Shown in pieces: positions 1 through 15,905 of a stretch of DNA of 61,775 bases (within the stretch, counting starts at the first letter, position 1; every line of letters starts with the position of its first letter). The stretch comes from Bacteroidales bacterium (lineage in GTDB: Bacteria; Bacteroidota; Bacteroidia; Bacteroidales; UBA932): positions 1 through 61,775 of the forward strand of contig JAFUMO010000031.1 in the NCBI GenBank assembly GCA_017482565.1, written 5' to 3'. Under the pieces are notes generated by a model. That model did not search any database. It saw only the letters and a list, made by a program, of their open reading frames with translations, and was not told the DNA's origin. A program made the translations under genes and the position numbers.

Positions 1-32
1 CATCAGTGGAGGAGCAAGCCAGAAGACCTGCC
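1..32 (+). promoter_or_regulatory. Cobalamin riboswitch, 3' end only (cut by window edge)
   Basis: The sequence AAGCCAGAAGACCTGCC at about 16-32 matches the strongly conserved 3' segment of AdoCbl riboswitches (typically AGCCAGGAGACCTGCC). The rest of the aptamer lies upstream of the window. It faces the PepSY-cbiK-PepSY-TonB operon beginning at 198, so that operon should be repressed by cobalamin. The roughly 165 nt between aptamer and start codon must hold the expression platform. It contains a short palindrome (TGCAGCATTGCTGCA, about 123-137) and a 9-bp inverted repeat touching the start codon. The complete homologue on the other strand near 15.7 kb supports the call. Confidence 0.8.
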
Positions 33-164
33 AAGATCAATTTGTTTTGAAGCTTTCGGGTAATAAGAGCTTGCAGACAGACACCAGATCCCACCAGAGA
101 TTTCTTGTCCGGCTGAACCTGTTGCAGCATTGCTGCAGAGGCCATTGTATATGCATGATTTCCT

Positions 165-197
165 ATTCCCGATAGTTGAATTTAATTCATCGGGAAT
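165..197 (+). repeat. 9-bp inverted repeat ending at the start codon
   Basis: ATTCCCGAT (165-173) and ATCGGGAAT (189-197) are perfect inverted repeats with a 15-nt loop, and the right arm ends on the base before the ATG at 198. It could be the output hairpin of the cobalamin riboswitch, hiding the ribosome entry site. Alternatively it is an inverted pair of the TCGGGAA motif that recurs throughout the window. Confidence 0.6.
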
Positions 198-1646
198 ATG
201 AAAAGAATTGCAGTCCTGCTTTATAAGGCACATAAATTCACGGGAATAATCATATCAGCATTTTTTCTGATGTGGTTTGTAACTGGTGTAATACTCATCT
301 ATCATCCATATCCAAAATTATCTGAAAGCAAGTACAACTCAATGAAGGAGACCCTCCCTTCTTCACTGCCTGACCTTTCATACATACAGGAGAGGGTTGA
401 GGGTGAACCAAGGAGCATAAGGATAAGAGAGTTCCAGGGACAGACCCTAATGGATGTAAGGACAGAAAAAGGGAAGTATCAGCTTACGACTGATACCCTC
501 AATGATATAAAACCTATAGATTTTAAGTGTGTAGAGAAGGTTGCAAGCCAATGGGTGGATGCTCCGGTAATTAAGGTGGACACTTTGCACAAGCGGAGGC
601 AATGGGTACTGTATTCCAGATATGACAGGGAACTGCCTATTTATAAATTCCATTTTGATGACAAGGACAAGACACAGCTCTTCGTATCCGGCAGGACAGC
701 TGATGTGCAGCAGCTGACCACGTCCAAGACAAGGTTCTGGGCGTATATTGGAGCCATTCCCCACAAGCTCTACATCCCGGCCATAAGGAAGGATGTGGAC
801 ACTTGGAAAGCGGCAATAATTACAGGTGCATCCATCTGCCTTGCAGCTGCACTCACAGGGTTCATCTATGGGCTCTATATCTTCATAAGGAGGAGAAAGG
901 TTAAGGGAGAATGGGGCAATCCATACAGGAAACGGTGGCAGAGAATTCATTTTGCTTTCGGACTCATCTTTGGAGTGTTCCTCATCTGGTGGGCAATAAG
1001 CGGAATTTTCTCCATGTCCCGTGTGCCGCAATGGATAATAAGGACAGAAGCGCCATTTACTTTTGACAAGACAAGGCTTTGGGGGAAGAACCTCCTCCCG
1101 ACAGATACCTACAGGCTCAGCTTCAACACCCTGAGGGAGACATATCCGCAGCTGAAGGAGATCACCCTGGCAAGGTTTGCAGATATCCCCGTATACATAA
1201 TTATTGAAGGGGAAAATGAGAGGTACATAGATGCATCATCAGACCAGGTGAAGACGCTCCACATCCCGCAGGAGACAATTGAAGAGGGATTCAGGAAGAT
1301 GTACGGGGAAAAAACGCCGGTAAAGGTTTCTGTACTCAATGAATATGACAACTACTATGTAAACCTCAGGAGGACATACACATTGCCGGTCTATAAGGTT
1401 GAAGTTGACAACAACGATAAGGAACTCTACTACATCAGCCCTGAAGACGGCTACATCAAGTACCTCAACAAGAACAAGAAGGCAGACAAATGGCTCTTCA
1501 GTGCCATCCACTATCTGAATCTCCCTTGGCTGATAAGCAGGCCTTGGCTATGGACAATCTGCATCTGGGTACTTTGTGCAGGGTGCGGGGTTGTATGTTT
1601 GTCGGGAGTGGTTTTGGGGATAAAGTCACTCAGGAAAAGGAAATAA
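198..1646 (+). CDS. PepSY-associated TM protein (putative reductase)
   Basis: An inner-membrane protein of 482 residues with the layout of PepSY_TM proteins: a TM helix at about 14-35, a periplasmic PepSY-like region, two helices at about 204-230 and 248-272, a second periplasmic region and a last helix at about 450-475, ending in a basic tail (SLRKRK). Histidines sit at the membrane borders (H12 in AHKFTG, H189 in IPHKLY, H251 in RIHFAFG, H438 in SAIHYLN). Equivalents are present in the paralogue at 2609. FoxB-like relatives are haem-containing siderophore reductases, so a metal or corrinoid reductase role is inferred. It is the first gene behind a cobalamin riboswitch; cbiK follows after 15 bp. 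Confidence 0.8.
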   Translation: MKRIAVLLYKAHKFTGIIISAFFLMWFVTGVILIYHPYPKLSESKYNSMKETLPSSLPDLSYIQERVEGEPRSIRIREFQGQTLMDVRTEKGKYQLTTDTLNDIKPIDFKCVEKVASQWVDAPVIKVDTLHKRRQWVLYSRYDRELPIYKFHFDDKDKTQLFVSGRTADVQQLTTSKTRFWAYIGAIPHKLYIPAIRKDVDTWKAAIITGASICLAAALTGFIYGLYIFIRRRKVKGEWGNPYRKRWQRIHFAFGLIFGVFLIWWAISGIFSMSRVPQWIIRTEAPFTFDKTRLWGKNLLPTDTYRLSFNTLRETYPQLKEITLARFADIPVYIIIEGENERYIDASSDQVKTLHIPQETIEEGFRKMYGEKTPVKVSVLNEYDNYYVNLRRTYTLPVYKVEVDNNDKELYYISPEDGYIKYLNKNKKADKWLFSAIHYLNLPWLISRPWLWTICIWVLCAGCGVVCLSGVVLGIKSLRKRK

Positions 1647-1661
1647 TTCAAATCATAAGTT

Positions 1662-2600
1662 ATGAAAAAACTGTTACTGCTTTTATTTGTATTCTCATTT
1701 CCAATGTTGGGGATGGCCCACAGCGATGAGAACTACCAGGAGAGCGATATGCTCAAGAATATGCAGCCGGGAGACAAGGCGGCTGTCCTTATGGTACATT
1801 TCGGAACATCCTACGATGATACCCGTACCGTAACAATTGATGCTATAAATGCAAAGGTTTGTGAGGCTTTTCCTGAACTCAGGTTTGAGGAGGCCTATAC
1901 ATCAAGAATGATTATAAGGATATTGGGAAAAAGGGGAATAGTAAAGAGGACACCCCTTGATGCCCTGCTCAAGCTCAGAGGAGAAGGCTATACACATATT
2001 ATAGTGCAAAGTTCCAATATTATAGATGGTGCAGAGATGGAATCCCTGAGAAGGGATGTTGCCCAGGTTGAACAGTTCTTCAAGGAGGTAAGAGTTGGAA
2101 CACCGCTGCTATCCTCAGTTTGGGACAATTATGCGGTGGCAAGGATTATTGCCGGGAAATATGCTGATAAAGAAGCTGTAAAAGGCCCTAAGCAGCACTT
2201 CATATTTGTAGGGCATGGCACATATACGCCAAGTACAGCCACCTACAGCCAGATGGACTACATCTTCAAATCTATGGGACATGACAATTTCCATGTTGCC
2301 ACTCTTGAGGGATTCCCTTCATACGATACTGCACTTACACAGTTTGAAGATGAGAAAAAGGTAAAGGGAGTTACACTTGTACCATTCATGTTTGTAGCGG
2401 GAGACCACGCACAGAACGACATAGCAGGAGAATGGAAAAACTCGCTTGAAGAGGCAGGATACAATGTTGATGTTGTAATGGAGGGGCTTGGACAAATTCC
2501 TGAAATCCAGGATATGTACATCTGCCATATAAAATTCTCCCTTCACCATAGGGCTATAGGCATTATGGAGAAGAAAGCCAGGTATGCATCAGAAAAATAA
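1662..2600 (+). CDS. cbiK: Periplasmic sirohydrochlorin cobaltochelatase, CbiK type
   Basis: A class II chelatase of the anaerobic CbiK family (312 residues) that inserts Co2+ into sirohydrochlorin. Unlike the cytoplasmic Salmonella enzyme it starts with a signal peptide (MKKLLLLLFVFSFPMLGMA), so it should be periplasmic, like the described CbiKP of Desulfovibrio. The metal-ligand histidines are visible: H185 in FVGHGTY and H249 in AGDHAQND, 64 residues apart, close to the family spacing. The family opening VHFGTSYDDTR is intact. It lies between two PepSY membrane genes (gaps 15 and 8 bp) in a riboswitch-led operon. As ring synthesis is cytoplasmic, a periplasmic chelatase may serve cobalt or tetrapyrrole capture instead; that is inference. 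Confidence 0.85.
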   Translation: MKKLLLLLFVFSFPMLGMAHSDENYQESDMLKNMQPGDKAAVLMVHFGTSYDDTRTVTIDAINAKVCEAFPELRFEEAYTSRMIIRILGKRGIVKRTPLDALLKLRGEGYTHIIVQSSNIIDGAEMESLRRDVAQVEQFFKEVRVGTPLLSSVWDNYAVARIIAGKYADKEAVKGPKQHFIFVGHGTYTPSTATYSQMDYIFKSMGHDNFHVATLEGFPSYDTALTQFEDEKKVKGVTLVPFMFVAGDHAQNDIAGEWKNSLEEAGYNVDVVMEGLGQIPEIQDMYICHIKFSLHHRAIGIMEKKARYASEK

Positions 2601-2608
2601 AATTTGCC

Positions 2609-4108
2609 ATGATACAGAAATTCTTCCGCACATTCCATAAAGTATTCGGTCTGCTGCTTTCACTGCTTTTCCTGATGTGGTTTCTCAGCGGAATAGTGAT
2701 GATATGGCACAGCTTCCCAAAAGCATCCCAGGAGTACAGAATGATGAGGCAGGATCCCCTGCCGGAGAATCTCCCGTCATTGGAAGATATACTCTCTGTC
2801 CTTCCCGACAGCATACAGCCCTCATCCATTACAATCCAGGGAAAATACGGACGACCGGCGGCAGCCTTGGGCGCTAAAGGTTACAATGTTGAGTATTATC
2901 TGGATTCACTGGTACAGGTTGAGGCATTCAGTGAACAAACAAGGGGGAAAATCCTTGCAGAGTGGTGTTCAGCGCCAATTGCAAAGATAGACACCTTGTG
3001 GAAAGTAGACCAATGGATACCGTTTGAAAGATGGAAAAAGGAGATGCCAATCTACAGATACCATTTCAGCGATCCTGAGAAGCATCAGCTTTACATGACA
3101 TCGAAAGATGGCAGGGTAATTCAGTTTACAGACAAGCAGGAGAGATTCTGGGCATGGCTTGGTCCAATTCCACATTGGGTTTATTTCACATTGCTCAGAC
3201 AACATCAGACAGCCTGGACAAAGTTTGTAATATGGTCTGCCAGCATTGGATGTGTAATGTGCATCTGCGGAATATTTGTGGCCGTATCAACATGGTGGAA
3301 ACAGAGGAAAAATGGCATTCTGCATAATCCGTACAAGAAGAGGTGGTACAGGTGGCATTTTGCAAGCGGACTCATCTTCGGGCTGTTTGCCATAACATTT
3401 GCCTTCAGCGGTGTTATGTCAATGACAGACTTGCCGCAATGGCTTAAGAAACAGAAGCCGAAGGAAGGGGGGCGTCAGGAAAAGATGATGCCGGGAAGAA
3501 GGGGAATGGCCGGAGGAAAGGCTTTGTCTGCCGGTACATATATGCTTGATTACCGCAAGGTCATTACGGGATGCGGTCATGTAAAGGCAATATCCTTTGA
3601 GAGCTGGAAAAGCAATCCGTACTATAAGGTGACCTGCAACGGTTCCGTAAAATATATTGATGCATCAGACACATCTGGAATCAGGCCGTTTGTCCTCACA
3701 CAAAAGATGGTTGAAGCCGATGCTGCAGCAAGACTTCCCCAAAATGCCCGATACTCATTGGAACTCATCAATGAGTATGACAAGGATTATTTTGCCAGAA
3801 AGAAAGAACGTGCACCGCTGCCTGTCTACAGGGTAATTGCAGATGATTATATGAATACAAGGCTGTATTACAACCCCAATACTTTACAGGTAAAACAGGT
3901 GAATGATGATACCCGTACAAGAAGCTTCCTGTACGGTGGGCTGCACAGGCTTGATATCAAATTTCTTACAGACCGCCCTGTATTATGGCATATAGTGATG
4001 CTTACACTCCTTGCCGGAGGATCATTCCTCTCCCTCACAGGTGTGGTCCTTACTATCAAGTGGATAAAAAGACAATTCAAAATAACAGACAAATCTGACA
4101 GAAGATGA
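2609..4108 (+). CDS. PepSY-associated TM protein, second paralogue
   Basis: A paralogue (499 residues) of the protein at 198 with the same four-helix layout: N-terminal TM (about 12-33), a central pair (about 205-230 and 250-272), a C-terminal helix (about 460-482) and a basic tail. Border histidines recur (H10 in FHKVFG, IPHWVY, RWHFASG, H446 in GLHRLD), as does the NPYKKRW motif before the third helix. A glycine/lysine-rich stretch near residues 288-305 is absent from the first copy. Its stop overlaps the receptor's start by 4 bp (ATGA), implying translational coupling. The function, reductive handling of imported metal chelates, is inferred from the family and operon. Confidence 0.78.
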   Translation: MIQKFFRTFHKVFGLLLSLLFLMWFLSGIVMIWHSFPKASQEYRMMRQDPLPENLPSLEDILSVLPDSIQPSSITIQGKYGRPAAALGAKGYNVEYYLDSLVQVEAFSEQTRGKILAEWCSAPIAKIDTLWKVDQWIPFERWKKEMPIYRYHFSDPEKHQLYMTSKDGRVIQFTDKQERFWAWLGPIPHWVYFTLLRQHQTAWTKFVIWSASIGCVMCICGIFVAVSTWWKQRKNGILHNPYKKRWYRWHFASGLIFGLFAITFAFSGVMSMTDLPQWLKKQKPKEGGRQEKMMPGRRGMAGGKALSAGTYMLDYRKVITGCGHVKAISFESWKSNPYYKVTCNGSVKYIDASDTSGIRPFVLTQKMVEADAAARLPQNARYSLELINEYDKDYFARKKERAPLPVYRVIADDYMNTRLYYNPNTLQVKQVNDDTRTRSFLYGGLHRLDIKFLTDRPVLWHIVMLTLLAGGSFLSLTGVVLTIKWIKRQFKITDKSDRR

Positions 4109-6462
4109 AAAAAACTTTTACTTTTATTGTGATGCTTTCGCTTTCACTTGCAGCTTCGGCGCAGGAAAATGAGGGCAAAATATCCCAGGAGGATACATTG
4201 AAAGAGATTCAGGTTGTAGGCTACAAGAAACAGCCTCTCCAGCTCCAGCCTGTAAACATGCTCAACCTTAATGTAGAGCTCAAATATCTCCCCATGACAG
4301 TGAGCAAGATTGACAATTCAACATTGGAGAGGAAACACATTGTTGACATGAATGATGCTGTGAGGTTTCTTCCTGGTGTAGTGAGGAGTTCAAACCAGTT
4401 GGGTGCATTTGAACGTTACAGTATCCGAGGTACAACAGATGCTGTATTTGCCTATGATGGAATCAGGGACGAACGTACACTCACAAATACAGTACCTTTC
4501 GGTGACCTTACAGCCGTTGAATCCATTGAGGTGATAAAGGGCCCTGCTTCAATCCTTGCAGGACACTCAGCTATGGGTGGTGTCATCAATATAGTAAGGA
4601 AGAAGCCTACCGAAAAATTTACAGCCAATGCAAGCATCAGCTATGGAAGCTGGGAGGAGAAGGATGCAACTTTGGGCTTTGGCGGCAAGCTTCTGGGACC
4701 TGTAAATTACAGGGCACATATACACTACAGCAACGGAGACGGATACAGGGAGGTTAATTCAGACCGTTTTTCCGGCATGTTTGCCATTGGCTCAAAGATA
4801 GGAAAGAAGGGGTATCTTGATGCAAGCATAAATTTTGCAGACGACTATTACACTACAGATATTGGAGGTGCACCTGTAATGCCTAATGACATCTACAACA
4901 CTTCAAATGACCAGCTGTATCTGCCAAGTGGAGTACGCAATCCCTATTGTGATTACGAAAAGGTATTCAACGACAATTCCAACAATCTTATGCGCCGCAG
5001 GAACCTTGATGTAATGGCAACTTATACCCAGGAACTGACAAGCTGGCTCAAATTGAGGGAAAGGTTCTCATTCCAGCACAGTAATCTTGACTATGCCGCT
5101 GTTGAGAACATGTCATACCTTACCAGCAACGACCCTATTTATGACCATTGGTACATCAACAAGAGAAACAACAAGAAAGTATATGTGAATCTTGATACTG
5201 TGAAAAGGGGGACCCCTCTTGTGTTCAATCCTGATCACAAGACATGGACAAATAACCTTGATTTCTCAGGAACATTTGGGACCGGGGCCATCAGGCATAA
5301 CTTCACATTCGGGTGGAACTATTCATTCTTTGATTTCACCCAGTATAACGGGTATAACGCAGGTGATGTATGGGGTCCCGGCCTTTCAGAGACAATGCCT
5401 GTATCAGACCCACATTCAGAGGGAGCATGGTGGGACTGGAAAGTATCAGCTGCTGTCATAAGGAACTATACCACCAATGCCATTTATATTACAGATGTGA
5501 TAGATTTCAATGAGCATTGGAAAGCAATGGTCAGCGGAAGGTTTGACTCATACAAATACAAGAACTCATCTGCAGTTATTGAGGATGGAAAGCAGCACTA
5601 TGAAAAAGAGAACCGTACAGACTGGACAAAAGTTTCAACATCTGCCTTGACATACAGGTTCGGTGTAGTATATCTTCCTGTTCCTGAAGTATCTATCTAT
5701 GCATCTGCCGCATCATATTACAAGCCTAACAATACCATATACAACAAGAACTACATCTACTATGACAGGAACGGAAATGAGTTCAATCCGGATGAGACAG
5801 GAGGAGAGGTATTCAAACCGGAAACCGGAAACCAGTTTGAAGCGGGTGTAAGATGGCAGAAAAGTTGGTTTGACATCAATGCAAGTGCATATTACATGAG
5901 AAAGCACAATGTGGTAACAACAATAGGAAACCTTACCGTTGAGGAGAACGGAGAAGAAGTAAGCAAGAGTGTCCGAGCACAGGTTGGCCGTTCAAAATCA
6001 ATAGGATTTGATTTTGATGTCACTGTACGTCCTGTACAGAACCTGCAGGTGGTGGCCGGTTTGGGATGGTCGGATTTCAGGAAGATTGCCAGTGAAATGG
6101 ATTGGGCAAAGAATCTGGATTGGGTAACCCTCAATGAAGATGGCACAATCAATCTGCGTGCAACAGGGGTTCCCCGTACAACTTTCTTTACCTATGCAGA
6201 CTATACTGTTCCAAAAGGATTGTTCAAGGACCTGTCATTCCACTTGAGCGGAACTTATACAGACAAGATATACAGCGATGTTGTAAATAATGTTTACGAC
6301 CCTGCCCGTTACATAGTGGATGCCGGTGTATATTATACCATCAACAATACCGTTACAGTTTCCTTCCTGTTGAACAACGTGTTCAACGAGCATTATTTTG
6401 CAAGTGCCACACGTCTTGCCAAGCCAAGGAATTTCAGAGTGACTGTAGCATACAGGTTCTAA
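4105..6462 (+). CDS. TonB-dependent outer-membrane receptor
   Basis: A 785-residue outer-membrane receptor with a signal peptide (MKKTFTFIVMLSLSLAASAQ) and a short extension carrying a TonB-box-like stretch (DTLKEIQVVGY). The plug domain shows DAVRFLPGVV, YSIRGTT and VIKGPASILAG, followed by a 22-strand barrel ending in an aromatic residue (VAYRF). It lacks the CarboxypepD_reg domain of SusC-type proteins and resembles siderophore receptors of the FhuA/FoxA kind more than BtuB. It is last in the cobalamin-riboswitch operon and overlaps the PepSY gene by 4 bp. The substrate is likely a cobalt chelate, corrinoid or siderophore; the sequence alone cannot decide. Confidence 0.88.
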   Translation: MKKTFTFIVMLSLSLAASAQENEGKISQEDTLKEIQVVGYKKQPLQLQPVNMLNLNVELKYLPMTVSKIDNSTLERKHIVDMNDAVRFLPGVVRSSNQLGAFERYSIRGTTDAVFAYDGIRDERTLTNTVPFGDLTAVESIEVIKGPASILAGHSAMGGVINIVRKKPTEKFTANASISYGSWEEKDATLGFGGKLLGPVNYRAHIHYSNGDGYREVNSDRFSGMFAIGSKIGKKGYLDASINFADDYYTTDIGGAPVMPNDIYNTSNDQLYLPSGVRNPYCDYEKVFNDNSNNLMRRRNLDVMATYTQELTSWLKLRERFSFQHSNLDYAAVENMSYLTSNDPIYDHWYINKRNNKKVYVNLDTVKRGTPLVFNPDHKTWTNNLDFSGTFGTGAIRHNFTFGWNYSFFDFTQYNGYNAGDVWGPGLSETMPVSDPHSEGAWWDWKVSAAVIRNYTTNAIYITDVIDFNEHWKAMVSGRFDSYKYKNSSAVIEDGKQHYEKENRTDWTKVSTSALTYRFGVVYLPVPEVSIYASAASYYKPNNTIYNKNYIYYDRNGNEFNPDETGGEVFKPETGNQFEAGVRWQKSWFDINASAYYMRKHNVVTTIGNLTVEENGEEVSKSVRAQVGRSKSIGFDFDVTVRPVQNLQVVAGLGWSDFRKIASEMDWAKNLDWVTLNEDGTINLRATGVPRTTFFTYADYTVPKGLFKDLSFHLSGTYTDKIYSDVVNNVYDPARYIVDAGVYYTINNTVTVSFLLNNVFNEHYFASATRLAKPRNFRVTVAYRF

Positions 6463-6480
6463 TGTTTAGTTTAGCATGAA

Positions 6481-6517
6481 AAAGACTGGGTCAAATCTTT
6501 GATCCGGTCTTTATTTT
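6481..6517. terminator. Bidirectional terminator between receptor gene and nrdG
   Basis: AAAGACTGGGTCAAA (6481-6495) pairs with TTTGATCCGGTCTTT (6498-6512), followed by ATTTTTG. It lies between convergent genes and its right arm reaches into the nrdG stop codon, so it can serve both strands. Confidence 0.75.
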
Positions 6518-7002
6518 TGTAGAATTGCGGCAATCTCTCCTGCATCCAGAATCCTTTGGTTTGAACTTCCCCTGAAACCGAGCTGTTCATCCCGCAGCCC
6601 CTCTACAAAAGGGCCGTCAACCAGCACATCAACAAGGCGGAGCAGTTCCATCCTCACAGGGTCATTTTCCAGAATTAGTTCTTCAAGTGTAAATCCGGTA
6701 TAGCACCAGATTGTTCTGGAAGTATCTTCCTTAATCCTACGTGCAAGATATGCAAATTCTGCAGCCTGATAAAAAGGGTCTCCTCCGGAAAAAGTAACGT
6801 TCCAGGGGGAGGCCTTTACCGTTTCCAGCAGCTCCCCTACCGTAACTTGCCTCCCGGCCCCAATATCCCAGCTCTGCGGGTTATGGCATCCTTTGCATCT
6901 GTGTCCGCACCCTGCACAATAGATGGAGAGACGGAAACCGGGTCCGTCAACCACGGTTCCGTCAATGATATCCAACACACTTATCTTTATTGAATCTTCC
7001 AT
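6511..7002 (-). CDS. nrdG: Anaerobic ribonucleotide reductase activating protein
   Basis: A radical-SAM activase of class III ribonucleotide reductase that generates the glycyl radical on NrdD. The ATG at 7002 is chosen, giving 163 residues beginning MEDSIKISVLDII. An upstream in-frame start would run into nrdD and lacks family similarity. The cluster motif CGHRCKGC (CxxxCxxC) is near residue 32, preceded by the family hallmark DGPGFRLSIYCAGC. A SAM-binding glycine segment FSGGDPF follows. It starts 4 bp after the nrdD stop, so the pair is co-transcribed. Confidence 0.92.
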   Translation of the reverse strand: MEDSIKISVLDIIDGTVVDGPGFRLSIYCAGCGHRCKGCHNPQSWDIGAGRQVTVGELLETVKASPWNVTFSGGDPFYQAAEFAYLARRIKEDTSRTIWCYTGFTLEELILENDPVRMELLRLVDVLVDGPFVEGLRDEQLGFRGSSNQRILDAGEIAAILQK

Positions 7003-7006
7003 AAGC

Positions 7007-9250
7007 TTACTCGTGTACCACACGGTCATTAAGTTCTGCCAATTTTGCCCTGTTCCAGCGGTCAGTAGTGCCCACAAGATAACCGGTAATCCTCTGAAGC
7101 TTGTCTATATTGCTGCTGCCGCATTTGGGGCACTCCGTCATATCCTTACGGGCATTCTCATAACCACAATCCATACACCTGTTGCGGTTATGGTTAACTG
7201 AGCCATATCCTATATCATACTTGTCCATAAGGTCCACAATGTTCATGATAGCCTCAGGATTATGCGTAGCGTCTCCGTCTATCTCAACATAGAAGATATG
7301 TCCGCCTCCCGTAAGCTTATGATATGGAGCCTCTATCTCAGCCTTGTGCTGTGGGGTGCATTTGTAATATACCGGAACATGATTTGAATTGGTATAATAG
7401 TCCTTGTCCGTAACCCCCTCCACAATACCAAAGTCCTTCTTGTCTCTTCTTGTAAATCTTCCCGACAGCCCTTCTGCAGGTGTAGCCAGCACACTGTAAT
7501 TATGGCCATAGCGGGTTGAGAACTCCTGAACCCTGTCCCTCATATATGTAACAATCTTCAGACCAAGCTCCTGGGCAGCAGCATCCTCACCATGATGCTT
7601 GCCTACAAGGGCAACAAGTGTCTCGGCCAAACCTATAAAACCTATACCCAAAGTACCCTGGTTGATTACAGATTCAATTGTATCAGTAGGCTTCAATTTC
7701 TCTGAGCCGTTCCATAATGCCGACATCAGCAGGGGAAACTGCTTTGCAAGCGCTGTCTTCTGGAAGCAGAACCGCTCATGGAGCTGTTTTGCTGCAATCT
7801 CAAGTGTAGCATCAAGCTTGCTCATGAAAAGATTGATTCTCTGCTCAATGTTATCTGTTGCCTGCATGCTCTCAAGGGCCAGCTTTACAATGTTTATTGT
7901 TGTGAACGAAAGGTTGCCCCTTCCAATTGAAGTCTTCTCCCCAAAACGGTTCTCAAACACCCTTGTACGGCAACCCATGGTTGCAACCTCATATTTGTAA
8001 CGCTCGGGATCATCCTCCCTCCACAATTCATGGTGATTGTAGGATGCATCCAGATTTACGAAATTAGGGAAGAACCTCTTGGCACTCACCATACATGCAA
8101 ACTTGTATAGGTCATAGTTCCTGTCTGTAGGAAGATAGCTCAATCCCCTCTTCTTTTTCCAAATCTGTATAGGGAAGATTGCTGTTGAGCCGTTTCCTAC
8201 ACCATGATATGTTGTATGGAGCAGTTCTCTGATGATACAACGTCCTTCAGCAGAGGTATCAGTTCCGTAGTTGATTGAACTGAACACTACCTGGTTCCCT
8301 CCACGGGAGTGGATTGTGTTCATATTATGTACGAATGCCTCCATAGACTGGTGCACCCTCTGGGCAGTACGGTTTATTGCATGCTGCTTTACCCTGTCTA
8401 TCCCTTTTAACGGAACACTTGTCTGCTTCCCTTCATAATCCTTTCCATCCAGATCCCTGATGATATAATCATCAACAGGTGCATTATACAAAGAGGAGTA
8501 ATCCTCACCTGAAAGTTTCTCAAGAATCTTGATCTCTTCAATATAACTGCTCCTTACAAATGGCGCAAGATAGTAGTCAAATGCCGGTATGGCCTGACCG
8601 CCGTGCATCTCATTCTGGGCTGTCTCCATAGAGATACAGCAAAGTATGCTGGCTGTTTCAATCCTCTTTGCCGGACGTGATTCACCATGGCCTGTACTGA
8701 AACCGTTCTTGAGTATCTTGTCAATGGGGTGCTGTACACATGTGAGGCTCTTTGTAGGGTAGTAATCCTTGTCATGGATATGAATGTAGTTCCTGGCTAC
8801 CGCCTCCTTCACATCATCCGAGAGGAGATAATCATCTACAAAAGGTTTGGTGGATTCACTTGAGAACTTCATCATCATGCCGGCAGGTGTATCTGCATTC
8901 ATGTTGGCATTCTCACGGGTAACGTCATTTGATTTTGTCTCAATTATCTCAAGGAATATTCCCCTTGTCTTGGCTTTTCTGGCCACAGTCCTCTTGTTCC
9001 TGTATGCAATATAAAGCTTTGCAACCTCCTTGCGGGGGCTTTTCATCAGCTCAAACTCCACAAGGTCCTGGATCTCCTCCACATGCATCTGCTCGTTTCC
9101 CCTGCATGCGATACGGTCAGTAATCTTTTTGATGAGCTCCTCATCCTCACCCTCAGGGCTGTGCAGCATTGCTTTCCTTATGGCTGCAGCAATCTTGGCC
9201 TCATTGAAGCCTACAATACGGCCGTCTCTTTTGATAACTGTTTGAATCAT
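7007..9250 (-). CDS. nrdD: Anaerobic ribonucleoside-triphosphate reductase
   Basis: Class III ribonucleotide reductase that makes dNTPs without oxygen and without B12. The ATG at 9250 gives 747 residues starting MIQTVIKRDGRIVGFNE, the usual ATP-cone opening; an in-frame ATG 11 codons earlier is less likely. After the ATP cone come the catalytic barrel (HIHDKDYYPTKSLTC near residue 160), a C-terminal zinc site (CMDCGYE and CPKCGSS) and the glycyl-radical segment RITGYLVG. The gene begins about 29 bp after the stop of the cbiJ-cbiD fusion on the same strand with no TAnnTTTG box visible between. It is probably read from the riboswitch-controlled cobalamin operon. Confidence 0.95.
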   Translation of the reverse strand: MIQTVIKRDGRIVGFNEAKIAAAIRKAMLHSPEGEDEELIKKITDRIACRGNEQMHVEEIQDLVEFELMKSPRKEVAKLYIAYRNKRTVARKAKTRGIFLEIIETKSNDVTRENANMNADTPAGMMMKFSSESTKPFVDDYLLSDDVKEAVARNYIHIHDKDYYPTKSLTCVQHPIDKILKNGFSTGHGESRPAKRIETASILCCISMETAQNEMHGGQAIPAFDYYLAPFVRSSYIEEIKILEKLSGEDYSSLYNAPVDDYIIRDLDGKDYEGKQTSVPLKGIDRVKQHAINRTAQRVHQSMEAFVHNMNTIHSRGGNQVVFSSINYGTDTSAEGRCIIRELLHTTYHGVGNGSTAIFPIQIWKKKRGLSYLPTDRNYDLYKFACMVSAKRFFPNFVNLDASYNHHELWREDDPERYKYEVATMGCRTRVFENRFGEKTSIGRGNLSFTTINIVKLALESMQATDNIEQRINLFMSKLDATLEIAAKQLHERFCFQKTALAKQFPLLMSALWNGSEKLKPTDTIESVINQGTLGIGFIGLAETLVALVGKHHGEDAAAQELGLKIVTYMRDRVQEFSTRYGHNYSVLATPAEGLSGRFTRRDKKDFGIVEGVTDKDYYTNSNHVPVYYKCTPQHKAEIEAPYHKLTGGGHIFYVEIDGDATHNPEAIMNIVDLMDKYDIGYGSVNHNRNRCMDCGYENARKDMTECPKCGSSNIDKLQRITGYLVGTTDRWNRAKLAELNDRVVHE

Positions 9251-9279
9251 AGTAGTGTATTTTAAATGTTTATTTTTTG

Positions 9280-11061
9280 TCATTCTTCAACCAATACCAC
9301 CTCAAGCTCACCGCAGGGGAGCAGCGGCGCGCATTGCTTACGGCAAAGTTCCCTTATCTCTCCAAAAAACCTTGTGGCATCTTCCCCATCAAATGCTCCC
9401 CACAGTTCCCTTGCAAGGGTAAAGTTGTCGGGAATAAAGGAACAGCCGCATTTGCGGGCCACTTCCTTTACAAACTCCTTGTCAACTGTCACAACACGGC
9501 TGTGGGTATCCAGGTTTCCGGCTGCCAGCTTTACCGCCTTGCCTATCATTATGCCTAATGTAACCTTTCTGAATCCATGCTCTGATGCCATCCTAACCGT
9601 ATCCCCAATAAAGTTGCCATAATGGATAAATGCCTGTGGAGGAAGTCCGGCTCCCACCCTCTCCTTAAGTTTCTGTTCACTTTTGGCACCTGAGTTTATG
9701 ATAAGATGCTCCACGCCCAAAGCCTTTGCCACATCCATCTCCCGGCTTATGGACTCCAGAAAAGCCTCCTTGGAAAATGGCCTCACAACACCACTCGTTC
9801 CAATGATTGATATTCCTCCGGAAACTCCCACACGTGGGTTGAAAGTCCTGGCGGCAAGTTCCCTCCCACCCGGAACCGAAATTGTAATCTCAGCACCCTT
9901 GCCAGGAATCTCCTCCTCAACAACCTTTCTCATCATCCTTCTCGGACCATTGTTGATTGCTGCACCTCCTACTTCCAGTCCCAAGCCGGGTAATGTTACT
10001 GTTCCTACCCCTTCTCCGGCAAAAAAACTCACCTCACCTGCATCATTTACTCTTACATGTGCTATTATATCGTACCCGCTGGTTGCATCAGGATCATCTC
10101 CTCCATATTTGGTTGCAGCTCCCCAGGCACCATCTTCAGTTAATCCGCTCCCTTTGAGGGGCATCATTACCCTTTCACCTTGGGGAAGAACAACACATAC
10201 TCTTGAATTGTCCTCACCATACAGCAGGCGTCTCAGGGCACCCCTCACAGCTGCAGTTGCTGTACTCCCGGTTGTAAGCCCTATACGCAAAGGGAAAAAG
10301 CCGGATGCATGCCTTTCAACTTCAAGCCTCAATCCTACAGGACCATAGACTGTAATGAACTCTTCCGGAAGCTGCGGCCTCCTCACTGCATATACCTTTA
10401 CTCCTGATGCTTTGGCAGCCTTAACCTTCTCGTTAAAATAGCCGCTTGCACCACTATCTTTTGTAATTATAGCCTGAGGTGATAACCTTTCCAGCAGTTC
10501 TGTTTCTGCCTCCAGTCCGGCATAATCCTCACTGAAAAACAAGAGCCTTTCTGCAGGAAATCCTGCATTTGAAGCCAGCTCCCTTGATTCATCCCTGTCC
10601 AGCACCCTGAAATGGCACACATTTCCTTCTCCACTCCACCATTCCTTTAATTTTGGGATGGTATTTACACCGGTAAGTGCCAGCAGGGAGGTAATTCCAT
10701 CTTTGGACAGCCGCGAAACCGCATCTTGGAATGAACTGCACCAGATTATATTGTCATCTGAAGATTCTGATTCCCTTTCATACCTGATTACCGGAATATC
10801 CAATTCTTGAGAAACAGCATGGGCCGTATCATGTACCCCAATGGCAAACGGATGTGCTGCATCAACAATCAGTCTCACTCCATTATCCCTGCAGAACTCC
10901 AATGCACGGCCGGCATCCATTGCACCGCAAAGCCTCTCCCCGTTGCACATTTCAATCTCCTGCAGGCTCCCTTTGGTTGAGTAGAAGAAAGGGCTGCCCG
11001 CTGCATCCAATGTCTGCACGGCAATCCGTCCTTCTGTTGTACCACCAAAAACCAGTATCAT
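9280..11061 (-). CDS. cbiJD: CbiJ-CbiD fusion (precorrin-6A reductase / C1-methyltransferase)
   Basis: A two-domain cobalamin enzyme of 593 residues. The N-terminal ~245 residues are CbiJ/CobK, the NADPH-dependent precorrin-6A reductase (MILVFGGTTEGR, VDAAHPFA). The C-terminal ~340 residues are CbiD, the cobalt-precorrin-5B C1-methyltransferase (LRIGLTTGSTATAAVRGAL, GGDDPDATSG, INNGPRRM). CbiD belongs to the anaerobic route, consistent with CbiK at 1662. It is the fourth gene of the riboswitch-led operon, about 62 bp downstream of cbiG-cbiF and followed by nrdD. Both domains look complete, so the protein should carry out two non-adjacent pathway steps. Confidence 0.92.
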   Translation of the reverse strand: MILVFGGTTEGRIAVQTLDAAGSPFFYSTKGSLQEIEMCNGERLCGAMDAGRALEFCRDNGVRLIVDAAHPFAIGVHDTAHAVSQELDIPVIRYERESESSDDNIIWCSSFQDAVSRLSKDGITSLLALTGVNTIPKLKEWWSGEGNVCHFRVLDRDESRELASNAGFPAERLLFFSEDYAGLEAETELLERLSPQAIITKDSGASGYFNEKVKAAKASGVKVYAVRRPQLPEEFITVYGPVGLRLEVERHASGFFPLRIGLTTGSTATAAVRGALRRLLYGEDNSRVCVVLPQGERVMMPLKGSGLTEDGAWGAATKYGGDDPDATSGYDIIAHVRVNDAGEVSFFAGEGVGTVTLPGLGLEVGGAAINNGPRRMMRKVVEEEIPGKGAEITISVPGGRELAARTFNPRVGVSGGISIIGTSGVVRPFSKEAFLESISREMDVAKALGVEHLIINSGAKSEQKLKERVGAGLPPQAFIHYGNFIGDTVRMASEHGFRKVTLGIMIGKAVKLAAGNLDTHSRVVTVDKEFVKEVARKCGCSFIPDNFTLARELWGAFDGEDATRFFGEIRELCRKQCAPLLPCGELEVVLVEE

Positions 11062-11123
11062 TTTTCAATCTGCATTAAATATCATTGGACCAGATGCTCC
11101 AACAAGTTTTATACATTCTGCCA

Positions 11124-12911
11124 TCACTTTCTGAACAAATGTTTGAACTCATGTGCATATAGCCTTGAAAGACCTTCCCTGTTATCTATTGCATCTCCAA
11201 CTACAATCATTGTTGTAAGGGTAAGGTTATTCCCTTTTACTATGGCTGCAAGGTCCTTCAACTCACCCCTGAAGATTTTCTGGTCTTTCCATGTAAGATG
11301 GTAACAGGCAGCTACAGGCGTTTGCGGCGGATAATGTACAAGAAGTTCCTCTTGAACCTGATCCACAACACCTGCACTCAGGAATATGCACATTGTGCTC
11401 CTGTGCCGGGCAAGCATGTGGAGCTTCTCCCTCTCAGGCATTGATGTACGCCCTTCCCCTCTTGTAAGGATTATGGTCTGCACCCTCTCCGGAATGGTAA
11501 ACTGGCTCTGAAGTTCCGCAGCTGCAGCAAGGAACGAAGAAATACCGGGTGTAATGTGATAGCTCATGTTGTATTTGTCAAAGAAAGCCATCTGTTCCTG
11601 TATTGCACCATATATGCAAGGATCTCCTGTATGGAGCCTCACAACGAGCAGTCCCTTGTCATAGAACTCCTTCATGAGCTGGAACTGCTCTTCAAGGTCC
11701 ATAGAGGCAGAACTCCTCACTACGGCCCCCTCCTTTGCATAGTATGTAAGTTCCTTAGGGACAAGACTGCCGGCGTAAAGGATAAGGTCCGCCTCCTCAA
11801 GCATCCTCTTTCCCCTCACTGAAACAAGTTCAGGATCTCCTGGGCCTGCACCTACAATCTCTATATGCCCTTTCCTCACAGCCCTGGAATCCATTGCCAT
11901 TGCAAAAGTCCAGTTCCCCATCTTCTGCTTCTCCACCAGCAGTTTCCCTCCTCCCGATGATTTTATTGCAGATGCCTCAGCCACAGAAGCGGTACCTGCC
12001 ACCTCAAGAGCCTTGCTGCTTGGATTCGGCACCTCAATGGCATTAAGGCTGTCGGGAGTATAAATATTATATTCCCCCTGTGCCCCTACAAGTGCACCCC
12101 TGAGCTGGAGCATCAAAGGCTCATTTTCCTTGATATCCACTGTGGAAATGGAGGCAATTGCAGCAGGGTTGTACCCTTTGTCTGTAATATATGAAAGAAT
12201 ATCTGCAACTGCACCGTCTGCCTGTGCCCCCTTACGGCATCCCGCACCTAAATGGAATACTTTTGGCACGTATGTAACCATTGGCATTTCTGAATAATAG
12301 AGGTATGGAGTAACTGCAATTATAAGGTCATAATCATATCCGGGAGCATCAAGACGGTGTTTCGGCAAATCGGCAAAGCTGTAGAATACATCTACATTGT
12401 CACCTTTGGTCTTTTCCAGCCACTGGGTTCCCCGGTCCCTGATGTCGAGCACAAGGGCAACCTTCCCGCCGTTCACGTATGTAGCTATAGGGCCGTTGAG
12501 TCCGTCAACATTTGTAAAGGTCTCCCAGCCGAACTTCCTGCCAATGGTATCCAAAGACCACAGGCCGCTGTTGTCCGAGCGGGTGGTAATTACAGCCTCT
12601 CCCCCTATAATGGAGGCAATTTCTGATGCAAGGGTATTGGCACCTCCTATATGGCCGCTCAATACAGATATCACATTGTTGCCGCAGCTGTCTGCACACA
12701 CCACTGCAGGATCAGTATGCTTGTCCTTTATGTAGGGGGCTATGCATCTTACACATATACCCAAAGCTCCCACAAAGAGAATCCTGCCATAGCTGTTGAA
12801 ATGTAGTTCAGAGAAATCTGCATAGCCAATAATCTCATTGTCCGGAAATTCCCTGCAGATAACATTTGTGCAGTCTCCTTTTCCAACTATCAGTAAAGTA
12901 TCCTTCTTCAT
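11124..12911 (-). CDS. cbiGF: CbiG-CbiF fusion (hydrolase / C11-methyltransferase)
   Basis: A fusion of CbiG (cobalt-precorrin-5A hydrolase, which opens the lactone and extrudes the C20 fragment as acetaldehyde) with CbiF/CobM (precorrin-4 C11-methyltransferase). The start at 12911 (MKKDTLLIVGKG) gives 595 residues; the upstream ATG at 12956 would overlap the preceding gene. The CbiG part spans about 1-340 (LSGHIGGANTLA; HLGAGCRKGA). The CbiF part begins at IEIVGAGPGDPELVSVRGKR and carries LYAGSLVPKE, HTGDPCIYGA and TPGISSFLAAAA. It lies in the middle of the cobalamin operon, 29 bp from cbiE-cbiT. Confidence 0.92.
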   Translation of the reverse strand: MKKDTLLIVGKGDCTNVICREFPDNEIIGYADFSELHFNSYGRILFVGALGICVRCIAPYIKDKHTDPAVVCADSCGNNVISVLSGHIGGANTLASEIASIIGGEAVITTRSDNSGLWSLDTIGRKFGWETFTNVDGLNGPIATYVNGGKVALVLDIRDRGTQWLEKTKGDNVDVFYSFADLPKHRLDAPGYDYDLIIAVTPYLYYSEMPMVTYVPKVFHLGAGCRKGAQADGAVADILSYITDKGYNPAAIASISTVDIKENEPLMLQLRGALVGAQGEYNIYTPDSLNAIEVPNPSSKALEVAGTASVAEASAIKSSGGGKLLVEKQKMGNWTFAMAMDSRAVRKGHIEIVGAGPGDPELVSVRGKRMLEEADLILYAGSLVPKELTYYAKEGAVVRSSASMDLEEQFQLMKEFYDKGLLVVRLHTGDPCIYGAIQEQMAFFDKYNMSYHITPGISSFLAAAAELQSQFTIPERVQTIILTRGEGRTSMPEREKLHMLARHRSTMCIFLSAGVVDQVQEELLVHYPPQTPVAACYHLTWKDQKIFRGELKDLAAIVKGNNLTLTTMIVVGDAIDNREGLSRLYAHEFKHLFRK

Positions 12912-12940
12912 AATATTTCCTTTAATTGTGTGCCGCCTTA

Positions 12941-14179
12941 TTATAATCTCACGCAACGGCAGCAGGTTATCCTGTTATAATTGTCTACGGTAATCTCAGT
13001 TTTTTCAGGGGATGAAAATCCGTTTTCCTGAGCAGCCTTGGCAAAAGTGTCACACTCAATTACTGAGTTATATACCACAATGCAGCCTTTGGGAACCATT
13101 TTGGAAAGCATCTCCATTATCCTGGCCATTTTGCCGCCATGACCGCCTATGAATACAGCATCCGGAAGATGTACGGTTCCGTCTTGAAGCATATCAGGAA
13201 GATCCATTGCCGTAAAATCCCCAATATGGGCATTGATGCCGGGCACCCCAAGCTTATGGCAATTCTCATCCATGATTGCAGCACATTGTTCCCTAATCTC
13301 AAATGCATCAACAAGCAGGTGGGGGAACTGCATCTTTGCCTCTATAGATACTGAACCGGTGCAGAAGCCAATATCCCAGAGCGCTGTTCTGGAGTGCAGG
13401 TCAAGCATGCTGAGGCTCAGGAGCCTTATGGGCATTTTGGTTATCATCTTCTCCCTTCCGTCTAAAAGTGCAAACTCTTTATGAGGGATGCCGAAATATC
13501 TTTTGGGAAGTTTTATATCCCATTCAGGACCTGCATCAGACGGGTGCATCTCCATAATCAGACAATTTGGCAGAGCAAAAGTGCCTGCTGCAGCCTCCTT
13601 TAAGGTAAGTGTTGAGATTTGCTCCCGTTCACTACCAAGACACTCCCCTATATGCATCCTGTAGTTGGTGTAACCATACTCAATGGCATGTGCTGCAATT
13701 GACGCCGGTGTATGGATCTTGTCAGTAAGTATCCCAATCTTTCCCCTCCTTTCAATGAGGGCCTGGTCAAACTTATGCCAGGGGCGTCCTGTAAGGGAGA
13801 CAACGGTCATGTCATCATACGGCATCACAAGCTTGTGCGCAAGGTTCTGCAGAGAATTGAAAACAGGGTATACCTTAATTTCTGCCTGTGGCATCCTCCT
13901 TCTGAGCGTTGCCGCAAACCCAAAGAAAAGCGGGTCCCCGGATGCAAATACCACAATCTTCTCCCGGCCTGACTTTTCATACTCCTCAAATACCCTTTCC
14001 AGAGGTACTGTAATATCAATCCAACTGTAACTGTCGGGAAGAAAACCCTTAACCAGCTCATGGTGCCTCTTTCCTCCGGAAAATACTGCTGCACTCCGCA
14101 GCTTCTCCTGCACAAATGAGAGATTCCGCTCCACTGAGTGGGGGTTGTCATCAATTCCTATTATGGTAAAACTGTACAT
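12941..14179 (-). CDS. cbiET: CbiE-CbiT fusion (precorrin-6Y C5,15-methyltransferase)
   Basis: A CobL-like bifunctional enzyme that methylates C5 and C15 and decarboxylates the C12 acetate. The start at 14179 (MYSFTIIGIDDNP) yields 412 residues and leaves 10 bp to the preceding stop; an earlier ATG at 14227 would overlap it. The N-terminal tetrapyrrole-methylase half (CbiE) has FASGDPLFFG and SLTGRPWH. The C-terminal Rossmann methyltransferase half (CbiT) begins near WDIGFCTGSVSIEAK, where Cys replaces the usual second Gly of the SAM-binding loop. VFIGGHGG and VVYNSVIE follow. It is second in the operon. Confidence 0.92.
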   Translation of the reverse strand: MYSFTIIGIDDNPHSVERNLSFVQEKLRSAAVFSGGKRHHELVKGFLPDSYSWIDITVPLERVFEEYEKSGREKIVVFASGDPLFFGFAATLRRRMPQAEIKVYPVFNSLQNLAHKLVMPYDDMTVVSLTGRPWHKFDQALIERRGKIGILTDKIHTPASIAAHAIEYGYTNYRMHIGECLGSEREQISTLTLKEAAAGTFALPNCLIMEMHPSDAGPEWDIKLPKRYFGIPHKEFALLDGREKMITKMPIRLLSLSMLDLHSRTALWDIGFCTGSVSIEAKMQFPHLLVDAFEIREQCAAIMDENCHKLGVPGINAHIGDFTAMDLPDMLQDGTVHLPDAVFIGGHGGKMARIMEMLSKMVPKGCIVVYNSVIECDTFAKAAQENGFSSPEKTEITVDNYNRITCCRCVRL

Positions 14180-14189
14180 GGCATCATAC

Positions 14190-15608
14190 CTATAAATCCC
14201 TTCCAGGACGCAGCTGTGCCGCATCATTGAAAGTAAGGATTGAGTTCACAATGGTAGCTGCAAGGTTGCTGCCCCCCTTGCGCCCTTCAATTATAACCTG
14301 AGGCACATCTGTAAAAGGCTTGAGGCTGTGTTTGGACTCCTCCACATGCACAAACCCAACCGGTGCCGCCACAACACCAAGAGGCCGGGCTGAGCCCCTC
14401 TTTATATGGGTGCATAGCTCCAGGAGTGCAGTTGGAGCGTTTCCGAATACATACATTGCCCCGGGATGCTCCTGTACGGCAAGCCTTATGCCCGCCTGAC
14501 TGCGGGTAATTCCCATCTGTAGGGCCATCTCTGCAACACGTGGGTCATTGAGGTAGCATTTCACCCCAATCCCCAGCCTCTGCAGAGCCCCTTTCCTGAT
14601 TCCTGCTGCAGCCATAGTTACATCAGTAATGATTGTCTTGTCTGCCCGGGAATCATTGCAGATTGCCTCATACATATTCTCCACAGCACCAGGAGTGGTA
14701 TAGAGCAGGTTCTCCATCTCAAAATCAGCTGTAGTGTGTATTGCATGCAAGAGTGTCCATTTCTTTCCTGCAGGAATATCCTTAGCCTTCAGTTCCCCCT
14801 CAATGGTCCTGAAACTCTTCATCATTATGTTTTGGCCAATCTTAATTGCCGGATCTTCCTCTTCCCGATAATAACCCCTCGGAGTGATGAATTTTCCCTC
14901 CTTTATGTAGGACTGCGAATTACCTATCAATACAACAGTGAACATATCCACATCTTCAGGATTGAACTGTTCAAGAGTTGTTACTGTTATCTGCTGGTCC
15001 TCCCTTCCGGCCTGCCTTACAAAACCTACAGGAGTATTGCCGCTCCTCTTCTTAAGGAAAAGTTCCTTAAGCCTGTAAAGCTGCCAGTAGCGCCCGTGGC
15101 TCTTCGGATTATATATTGCGGTAATGAAATCTGCGTATGCAGCCGCCCTGATCCTCCTTTCAATCTTCTCCCAAGGGGTCATGAGGTCTGAAAGGGAAAT
15201 GATGCACAAATCGTGTCCTATAGGAGCTCCAAGGAGCGATGCTGCCTTCTGGAAGGCGCTGATACCGGGAATGACCTTAAGATCCAGTTCCTCTGCAAGC
15301 CCCTCCTCCTTCTTGTGAAGGTACATCTCCCAGATAAGTGGCGCCATACCATATATTCCTGCATCACCGGAGCTGATGACACAAACTGTGAGCCCCTCCA
15401 TTGCATAATTGAATGCCTGCAGAGCCCTCTCCCTCTCCTTGCGCATTCCGGAATCTATACACACGGCCTTGCTGGAAAGATAAGGCTCAATGAACTGGAA
15501 ATAGTACTTGTATCCAACAATCACATCACTGGCCGATACAGCTTCCATTACTGCCGGAGTTATATCCTCACGGCTGCCGGGACCGATTCCCGCCACAATG
15601 ATTCTCAT
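14190..15608 (-). CDS. cbiHC: CbiH-CbiC fusion (C17-methyltransferase / precorrin-8X methylmutase)
   Basis: The first gene of the cobalamin operon (472 residues). Residues 1 to about 245 are CbiH/CobJ, the precorrin-3B C17-methyltransferase that contracts the ring (VAGIGPGSREDITP, SSGDAGIYGMA, IPGISAFQKAAS, YNPKSHGR). Residues ~265-460 are CbiC/CobH, the precorrin-8X methylmutase that makes hydrogenobyrinate/cobyrinate (HTTADFEMENLL with the catalytic-type His, NAPTALLEL, APVGFVHVEESK). The ATG at 15608 is about 45 nt after the riboswitch aptamer and 15 nt after a T-rich run. The CbiL, CbiA, CbiP and lower-ligand genes are not in the window and must lie elsewhere. Confidence 0.92.
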   Translation of the reverse strand: MRIIVAGIGPGSREDITPAVMEAVSASDVIVGYKYYFQFIEPYLSSKAVCIDSGMRKERERALQAFNYAMEGLTVCVISSGDAGIYGMAPLIWEMYLHKKEEGLAEELDLKVIPGISAFQKAASLLGAPIGHDLCIISLSDLMTPWEKIERRIRAAAYADFITAIYNPKSHGRYWQLYRLKELFLKKRSGNTPVGFVRQAGREDQQITVTTLEQFNPEDVDMFTVVLIGNSQSYIKEGKFITPRGYYREEEDPAIKIGQNIMMKSFRTIEGELKAKDIPAGKKWTLLHAIHTTADFEMENLLYTTPGAVENMYEAICNDSRADKTIITDVTMAAAGIRKGALQRLGIGVKCYLNDPRVAEMALQMGITRSQAGIRLAVQEHPGAMYVFGNAPTALLELCTHIKRGSARPLGVVAAPVGFVHVEESKHSLKPFTDVPQVIIEGRKGGSNLAATIVNSILTFNDAAQLRPGRDL

Positions 15609-15651: not shown

Positions 15652-15828
15652 GCATCACCGCTTCCACTCCATCCGGCAGGTTTTCTGACTCGCCTTACAG
15701 ATACGCCTTCCCTTTTACAGTGGCTCAGAATGTATCTGCCTTACAAGGCACACAGCAACGGGCATTGTTCCGGATTCCAACCGGATTCCCTCTCTGCGGA
15801 CCAGAATTGGTACGCATCACCGAATGTT
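15652..15828 (-). promoter_or_regulatory. Cobalamin riboswitch (complete)
   Basis: Read on the minus strand this segment carries the AdoCbl-riboswitch landmarks in order: AGAGGGAATCCGGTTGGAA, the CCCGTTGCTGTG core, GCCACTGT, GGGAAGGCG and finally the box GAGTCAGAAAACCTGCC (on the plus strand around 15673-15692). It sits 40-220 nt upstream of cbiH-cbiC and should switch off the whole operon when cobalamin is plentiful. I do not see a clear intrinsic terminator between aptamer and start, so translational control is more likely, as is usual in Bacteroidota. Confidence 0.93.
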
Positions 15829-15905
15829 TTGCGAATATAGTTATTTTAATTCTTGTTTTCATTGTATCTTCGCACGAAATATTAACAATTACATGTTGAA
15901 ATATC

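Follow-up and report, generated by a model that had tools for sequence, protein, structure and literature searches.

A cobalamin-controlled operon with a signal-peptide CbiK in Bacteroidales, possibly the outer part of cobalamin synthesis from imported precursors

A contig of a Bacteroidales bacterium (GenBank assembly GCA_017482565.1, contig JAFUMO010000031.1, positions 1 to 61,775; this whole stretch of 61,775 nucleotides is called the window below) begins with a cobalamin (B12) riboswitch tail and an operon for two PepSY_TM membrane proteins, a CbiK-type chelatase with a signal peptide and a TonB-dependent receptor. Among sampled Bacteroidales that hold corrin genes, a signal-peptide CbiK encoded close to a TonB receptor was found only in genomes in which the early tetrapyrrole gene hemB was not found. 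We propose, at a probability of roughly 45%, that the operon represents the outer part of a cobalamin pathway fed by external precursors, in Bacteroidales that are unable to build the ring from scratch. Bacteroidota that have corrin enzymes but lack the early steps of tetrapyrrole synthesis pose a long-standing question. In the sampled genomes a B12-controlled gene set tracks that gap, which makes the missing uptake step testable.

Distribution of the chelatase and of the early tetrapyrrole genes

The distribution was followed in 393 evenly drawn Bacteroidales genomes. CbiK was found above cut-off in 25 of these and CbiD in 27; a 28th CbiD genome was dropped, its match being below cut-off and containing stop codons. 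HemB was found in 12 of the 27 CbiD genomes (HemB+ below; in G665 as a fragment at a contig end only) and not in the other 15 (HemB-). HemC agrees with HemB in all 25 genomes searched for it (all but G347 and G610); of the early tetrapyrrole genes up to uroporphyrinogen III, the search covered HemB and HemC. Since HemB was not found and HemC agrees, the 15 genomes seem unable to make uroporphyrinogen III. SUMT was found above cut-off in all 11 HemB+ genomes tested, versus one of the 14 HemB- genomes tested (G667). A dedicated CbiX, taken as a match with E under 1e-20, is present in 7/12 HemB+ genomes versus 0/15 HemB- genomes; the CbiX matches of the latter are CbiK itself, and G238 and G525 each show one further weak match (22.4 bits against a cut-off of 22, and 21.6 bits, respectively). 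A CbiL-type match of at least 110 bits was obtained in 13 HemB- genomes (not in G000 and G717) and in 11 HemB+ genomes (not in G475), the CbiL cut-off of 163 being reached in only 7 of the 27.

A signal-peptide, non-lipoprotein CbiK at most two genes away from a TonB receptor, referred to below as the module, occurs in 13 of the 15 HemB- genomes versus none of the 12 HemB+ genomes (Fisher p 6e-6). Counted by family the contrast is 8 versus 0 (p 1.6e-4), family f141 being on both sides; f2 and f3 include, in addition, a HemB- genome that lacks the module. The genomes compared are related and absence from a draft is a weak observation; the assemblies of G525 and G732 are single contigs. Within genus g259, G480 is HemB+ and has no module, and G732 and G580 are HemB- and have it. 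G230 has two CbiKs that fall in the FetB-like part of the tree, both adjacent to receptors; a lipobox is present in one of them, and the N-terminus of the other is ambiguous. If this genome is counted, the module is found in 14 of the 15 HemB- genomes (p 7e-7). In a wider sample of the phylum (395 genomes) CbiK was found above cut-off in 20 genomes, 15 of them from family f19, and none of the four f19 N-termini read has a strongly hydrophobic start.

The genome of the window (G000; 2.10 Mb in 70 contigs, 89% complete, with the window as contig C19 from its first base) encodes CbiD, and HemB, HemC and SUMT above cut-off were not found in it. Corrin genes without early tetrapyrrole genes are the pattern by which tetrapyrrole precursor salvagers are defined in passages of Shelton et al. 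(PMC6461909), and G000 shows this pattern. A first-pass annotation of the window had seen little reason for ordinary corrin synthesis to use a chelatase in the periplasm. That argument is not supported here: the carriers keep their corrin genes, and HemB, HemC and a dedicated CbiX were not found in them.

The operon of the window

The operon lies on the forward strand. PepSY_TM protein 1 (positions 198 to 1646, 482 aa; PF03929, 44.5 bits), a putative haem-dependent periplasmic metal reductase, is followed by the class II chelatase CbiK (1662 to 2600, 312 aa; PF06180, 242.4 bits against a cut-off of 26.2), by PepSY_TM protein 2 (2609 to 4108, 499 aa; PF03929, 56.8 bits) and by a siderophore-type TonB-dependent receptor with barrel and plug (4105 to 6462, 785 aa; PF00593 and PF07715). 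The reading frames are separated by gaps of 15 and 8 bp and then overlap by 4 bp. Upstream, at positions 1 to 49 of the same strand, lies the 3' tail of a cobalamin riboswitch (RF00174 model positions 141 to 189 in cmscan; E 0.0066, with 18.6 bits against a gathering score of 31.5). The tail alone is present because position 1 of the window is an assembly break, the 5' half having been lost at the contig edge. The receptor has its best match to the TonB siderophore receptor family TIGR01783 (174.7 bits, under the curated cut-off of 223.5), and its relative in G741 (locus L069) scores above that cut-off (237.8 bits). Gene order and spacing had been read correctly in the first-pass annotation, and its B12 control, its TonB receptor, its PepSY reductase pair and, as far as hydropathy and a cleavage-like motif can tell, its signal peptide of CbiK are supported.

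Four histidines of PepSY protein 2 (H10, H189, H250 and H446) are invariant in an alignment of 12 rows, namely both PepSY proteins and 10 relatives, as in haem-based metal reductases; their count matches the two bis-His haems of FoxB described in passages of PMC13038864. A structure model of two of the rows (pLDDT 42) does not confirm the haem geometry, and neither sequence nor profile search returned a solved relative of the PepSY proteins. A profile search of G000 at E 0.001 gave no second copy of PF06180 or PF03929 outside the operon.

CbiK

The N-terminus of CbiK, MKKLLLLLFVFSFPMLGMA, reaches a 12-residue hydropathy maximum of 2.59 and is without a lipobox; hydropathy and motif reading predict a signal peptide of 19 aa (positions 1662 to 1718) with cleavage at GMA/H. 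A cytoplasmic CbiK with a mispredicted start was considered and rejected, as the 38 aa that precede the domain are hydrophobic. Among cytoplasmic-type relatives, five start 6 to 12 aa ahead of the domain, and two others have 19 and 38 aa ahead of it, counted from the first possible start, that are not strongly hydrophobic.

The catalytic histidine pair is H185 and H249, equivalent to His145 and His207 of the Salmonella enzyme, whose catalytic roles are described in passages of PMC7689651. The pair is kept, together with the equivalent of Salmonella E89, in 12 of 12 signal-peptide CbiKs. All twelve have lost the histidine of the QSLH motif (Asn in the window protein), the presumed haem ligand of the Desulfovibrio CbiK-P. 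In the tree the twelve form one clade (support 98/99), separate from FetB and the lipoprotein CbiKs, and the window protein does not fall in the clade that FetB belongs to (support 100/99). Its score against the sirohydrochlorin cobaltochelatase equivalog NF047852 is 179.9 bits and does not reach the cut-off of 400. It is therefore not assigned to that equivalog. As a member of the PF06180 class II chelatase family it is a candidate for cobalt insertion into sirohydrochlorin.

Six of the twelve signal-peptide CbiKs (that of the window and those of L061, L063, L065, L067 and L069) have a histidine directly after the likely cleavage site (AHS, AHG, AHE or AHT). In the mature protein this N-terminal histidine might bind metal.

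Module loci in related genomes

A B12 riboswitch is present in all 12 module loci that were fetched, not counting the tail in the window. Ten of the 13 module genomes have PepSY at the CbiK locus (G000, G671, G486, G525, G238, G761, G680, G498, G741 and G732). In G580 PepSY sits with the cbi genes on a different contig from CbiK, and none was seen in the CbiK stretches of G717 and G667.

The surroundings connect the module with corrin synthesis. In G525 the order is receptor-CbiK-receptor-PepSY-PepSY-cbiHC-cbiET-cbiGF; G238 and G761 have the same order with one PepSY, and in G761 a BtuF-type gene is inserted. In G671 and G486 CbiK, receptor and PepSY are followed by BtuF-, BtuC- and BtuD-type genes and CbiL, and G671 continues to cbiHC. 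In G732 the order is CbiK-receptor-PepSY-cbiHC-cbiET-cbiGF-CbiL with a 432 aa protein between receptor and PepSY, and a haem/B12-type receptor and a lipoprotein-like CbiK lie farther away. G741 has receptor-XusB-like-PepSY-CbiK-riboswitch-receptor-PepSY; no XusB match was obtained for the companion protein in L074. CbiL adjoins BtuF- or BtuD-type genes, or is divergent from BtuF, in G671, G486, G525, G761, G498 and G238. The operon had been described as a self-contained cobalt or corrinoid acquisition route. A role in cobalt or corrinoid supply is retained here, but not self-containment, as in relatives the module runs on into cbi genes or is joined to CbiL and an ABC importer.

Three kinds of receptor occur at the CbiK loci: that of the window (TIGR01783), one scoring best to B12 and haem receptors (G525, G671 and G230) and one scoring best to MxcH (G741, G732, G717 and G667). 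Except for the TIGR01783 copy of G741, all score under curated cut-offs. In L094, from Bacteroidales bacterium RGIG8040 of water buffalo rumen, a Peripla_BP_2/FecCD/ABC set lies 1.6 kb before a signal-peptide CbiK, surrounded by CbiA, a TonB receptor, a lipoprotein CbiK, cobalamin adenosyltransferase, cobyric acid synthase and CbiB. A BtuB identity of the L094-type receptor is not supported: its best matches are haem and catecholate receptors, and it reaches 115.6 bits against the B12 receptor. The labels BtuF, BtuC and BtuD used here denote similarity to the L094 set, whose permease is best to BtuC and whose ATPase is best to FecE, both below cut-off, so that the labels do not fix the cargo.

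G238, in which HemB and HemC were not found, also has a cluster (L132, 4855-10833) next to methylmalonyl-CoA mutase in which a SUMT-like methylase (160.7 bits, sub-cut-off) lies between a pair of TonB receptor and periplasmic binding protein and BtuD/BtuC-type genes. This cluster is a possible second tetrapyrrole salvage cluster.

Riboswitches, contig edge and cbi operon of G000

The anaerobic corrin operon of the window lies on the opposite strand, about nine kb from the four-gene operon. It is headed by a complete cobalamin riboswitch (positions 15658 to 15839, minus strand as for all that follow; RF00174, 82.8 bits) and consists of the fusions cbiH-cbiC (14190 to 15608; TIGR01466, 318.9 bits; PF02570, 219.2 bits), cbiE-cbiT (12941 to 14227; TIGR02467, 154.6 bits, and TIGR02469, 83.7 bits, both above cut-off), cbiG-cbiF (11124 to 12956; PF11760, PF11761 and PF01890; TIGR01465, 340.7 bits) and cbiJ-cbiD (9280 to 11061; PF02571 and PF01888; TIGR00312, 338.2 bits).

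A search of G000 gave three complete B12 riboswitches. One precedes the cbi operon, one the BtuF/C/D-type genes on contig C57 and one a receptor on contig C69 that scores best to B12 receptors, below cut-off. C57 has 3946 bases and holds the riboswitch and BtuF-BtuC-BtuD-type genes; the same 141-nt riboswitch 5' half (model positions 1 to 125) stands in inverted orientation at its two ends (L143, 1-141 and 3806-3946). Two B12 riboswitches around the C57 genes thus share their 5' halves, which probably broke the assembly. The last stem strand of the C57 half is complementary to the start of the window over 9 nt; among 30 tails compared, the window's included, this run is the longest (the next have 8 and 7). 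No other contig edge with a matching riboswitch tail was seen at the 70 contig starts and 54 of the 70 contig ends read; these ends include C19 and C57, and the remaining 16 belong to contigs under 2.7 kb. From this match of ends, the window operon may well abut the BtuFCD-type genes of C57, on a side of C57 that is ambiguous. The earlier statement that no BtuCDF genes are present is true of the window, and is perhaps an effect of the contig edge, given that the C57 genes may adjoin it.

Elsewhere the window encodes a Bacteroidales small SRP RNA and, at 45162-49754, a protein of 1530 aa with four BACON and eleven BspA-type leucine-rich repeat stretches.

Proposed pathway and alternatives

Corrin enzymes need a sirohydrochlorin-level tetrapyrrole and cobalt to start. 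Since HemB, HemC, CbiX and mostly SUMT were not found, tetrapyrrole and cobalt are both probably external, and an external tetrapyrrole would therefore first be met in the periplasm. The signal-peptide CbiK is probably the chelatase at hand in genomes in which no CbiX was found. We propose that at low B12 the riboswitch would permit expression of the operon, upon which the siderophore-type receptor of the window would bring a metal chelate into the periplasm. A second TonB receptor would admit a sirohydrochlorin-like tetrapyrrole; candidates are the B12/haem-type receptors beside CbiK in relatives, none of which was located in G000. The PepSY pair would reduce the chelated metal from Co(III) to Co(II), and periplasmic CbiK would insert it into the tetrapyrrole. 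The resulting cobalt-sirohydrochlorin would be carried into the cytoplasm by the BtuFCD-type ABC importer, where CbiL and the cbi enzymes would complete the corrin. Two receptor types, reductases and CbiK fit such a two-substrate scheme, in which metal and tetrapyrrole meet in the periplasm. If true, it would explain the source of the B12 starting material in such bacteria, place cobalt insertion in the periplasm and mean that members of gut communities exchange tetrapyrroles of the sirohydrochlorin level as nutrients.

Several observations weigh against this proposal. The export signal of CbiK is a prediction from hydropathy and motif, common B12 control can by itself cluster genes, and CbiL was not found in G000 or in G717 (93% complete). 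A lipoprotein CbiK lies beside a TonB receptor in five of the 12 HemB+ genomes (G475, G577, G665, G724 and G768), all five receptors are of the kind found beside CbiK in G525, and BtuFCD-type genes then follow in G475, G577 and G665. In these three (L077, L078 and L079, in the last at 6311-15564) the order is receptor, lipoprotein CbiK, receptor, BtuF-BtuC-BtuD-type in HemB+ genomes that have CbiX; a B12 riboswitch heads the set of G665, which is the one locus scanned of the five with a lipoprotein CbiK. For any extracytoplasmic CbiK the contrast shrinks to 14/15 HemB- versus 5/12 HemB+ genomes (p 0.008). In the HemB+ genomes G768 and G423, BtuFCD-CbiA-CbiL-cbiHC follow a signal-peptide CbiK that has no receptor within two genes of it; a receptor of G423 lies about 6 kb from CbiK, behind its own riboswitch. 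Conversely, G347 is HemB- with corrin genes and has no CbiK or CbiX match. In G766 a CbiK of the clade lies beside a receptor (L080, 9754-12720), but the genome has no CbiD match; the motif is changed to CGNH, and the stretch read holds no riboswitch. Finally, the Nramp metal importer encoded between cbiET and cbiGF in G498 (L137, 1075-2334) suggests that free metal may be cargo.

The nearest rival is cobalt piracy alone, which we consider unlikely. Here a Co(III) chelate would be taken up as in XusABC and reduced by PepSY, CbiK would be a mere holder of Co(II) that serves an ion importer, and the tetrapyrrole would arrive by an unrelated route. The siderophore-type receptor of the window is in line with this, as are the Nramp gene of G498, the set of MxcH-type receptor, XusB-like protein (PDB XusB 9hqe, E 2e-8) and PepSY in G741, and the role of XusC, in passages of PMC13142918, that PepSY would fill. 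However, a holder need not conserve both catalytic histidines and the glutamate in 12 of 12 proteins. Piracy also leaves the link with the missing HemB, HemC and CbiX unexplained, and B12/haem-type receptors and BtuFCD-type importers adjoin CbiK.

Rather improbable, in our estimate, is that CbiK is an extracytoplasmic corrinoid or haem binder accessory to corrinoid uptake, near the cbi genes only through shared B12 regulation. This explanation gains, and precursor-fed synthesis loses, because five HemB+ genomes have the receptor kind of G525 next to a lipoprotein CbiK, three of them with BtuFCD-type importers adjoining; moreover, the relative FetB is a haem protein according to the title of PDB 9b86. 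Against this stand the separation of the signal-peptide clade from FetB and the lipoproteins, the loss of the QSLH histidine with retention of the catalytic pair in all twelve, and the failure to find CbiX in module genomes.

About equally doubtful is a periplasmic metal swap, in which siroheme made by other organisms would be imported, PepSY would reduce its iron, CbiK would exchange Fe(II) for Co(II) and a BtuFCD-type copy would deliver the cobalt-sirohydrochlorin to CbiL. B12 would then be built on scavenged siroheme, with the first committed tetrapyrrole step outside the cytoplasm. Haem itself was rejected as a corrin precursor on chemical grounds, as we know of no chemistry leading from haem to sirohydrochlorin.

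A function in acquiring haem or iron, of the sort proposed for HmuS or for FetB of P. gingivalis, is very improbable: PepSY, a siderophore-type receptor and the metal exchange in porphyrins by FetB (passages of PMC13402209) would suit it, but the loci carry B12 riboswitches, the window tail among them, and are linked to cbi genes. A CobN/HmuS system was rejected, as the profile search of G000 gave no match to PF02514.

Comparison with known systems

In the open-licence PMC text no paper was found that joins CbiK, PepSY and TonB, and for CbiK with signal peptide and riboswitch, or sirohydrochlorin with TonB, nothing was found that by its listing concerns the present system. Part of the window operon may already have been predicted as cnoABDC, a cobalt-uptake set listed in passages of PMC8123684, which credit it to Rodionov 2019 and do not show its make-up; the term does not occur in the main text of Rodionov 2019.

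The periplasmic cobaltochelatase CbiK-P of Desulfovibrio vulgaris (PDB 2xvx/2xvz) belongs to a different branch of the tree from the window CbiK. A predicted export signal is common to both, but CbiK-P keeps the QSLH histidine, which the clade of the window protein has lost. We know of no receptor/PepSY operon around it.

XusABC of Bacteroides thetaiotaomicron, as described in passages of PMC13142918, has a TonB receptor and a PepSY inner-membrane reductase in common with the window, which in addition has a B12 riboswitch and a chelatase. The XusB (DUF4374) lipoprotein has no counterpart among the four genes of the window, whereas a XusB-like protein is encoded in G741 (L069). FetB of Porphyromonas gingivalis (PDB 9b86) is a CbiK homologue with 34% identity to the window protein over 246 aligned residues; it groups with the lipoprotein CbiKs, whereas the window CbiK is without a lipobox. 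P. gingivalis is without the steps to precorrin-2 according to passages of PMC6461909, citing Roper 2000. HmuS, in passages of PMC13227078, resembles the window CbiK in being a chelatase homologue that is exported and encoded with a TonB system in an operon of Bacteroidota, but is a CobN-type class I protein whereas CbiK is of class II.

The tetrapyrrole precursor salvagers are similar in gene content. In passages of PMC8123684 precorrin-2 salvagers make up 0.6% of genomes; passages of PMC6461909 leave the uptake machinery of precursor salvagers unnamed, and the gene gap by which they define them is the same as that of the module genomes.

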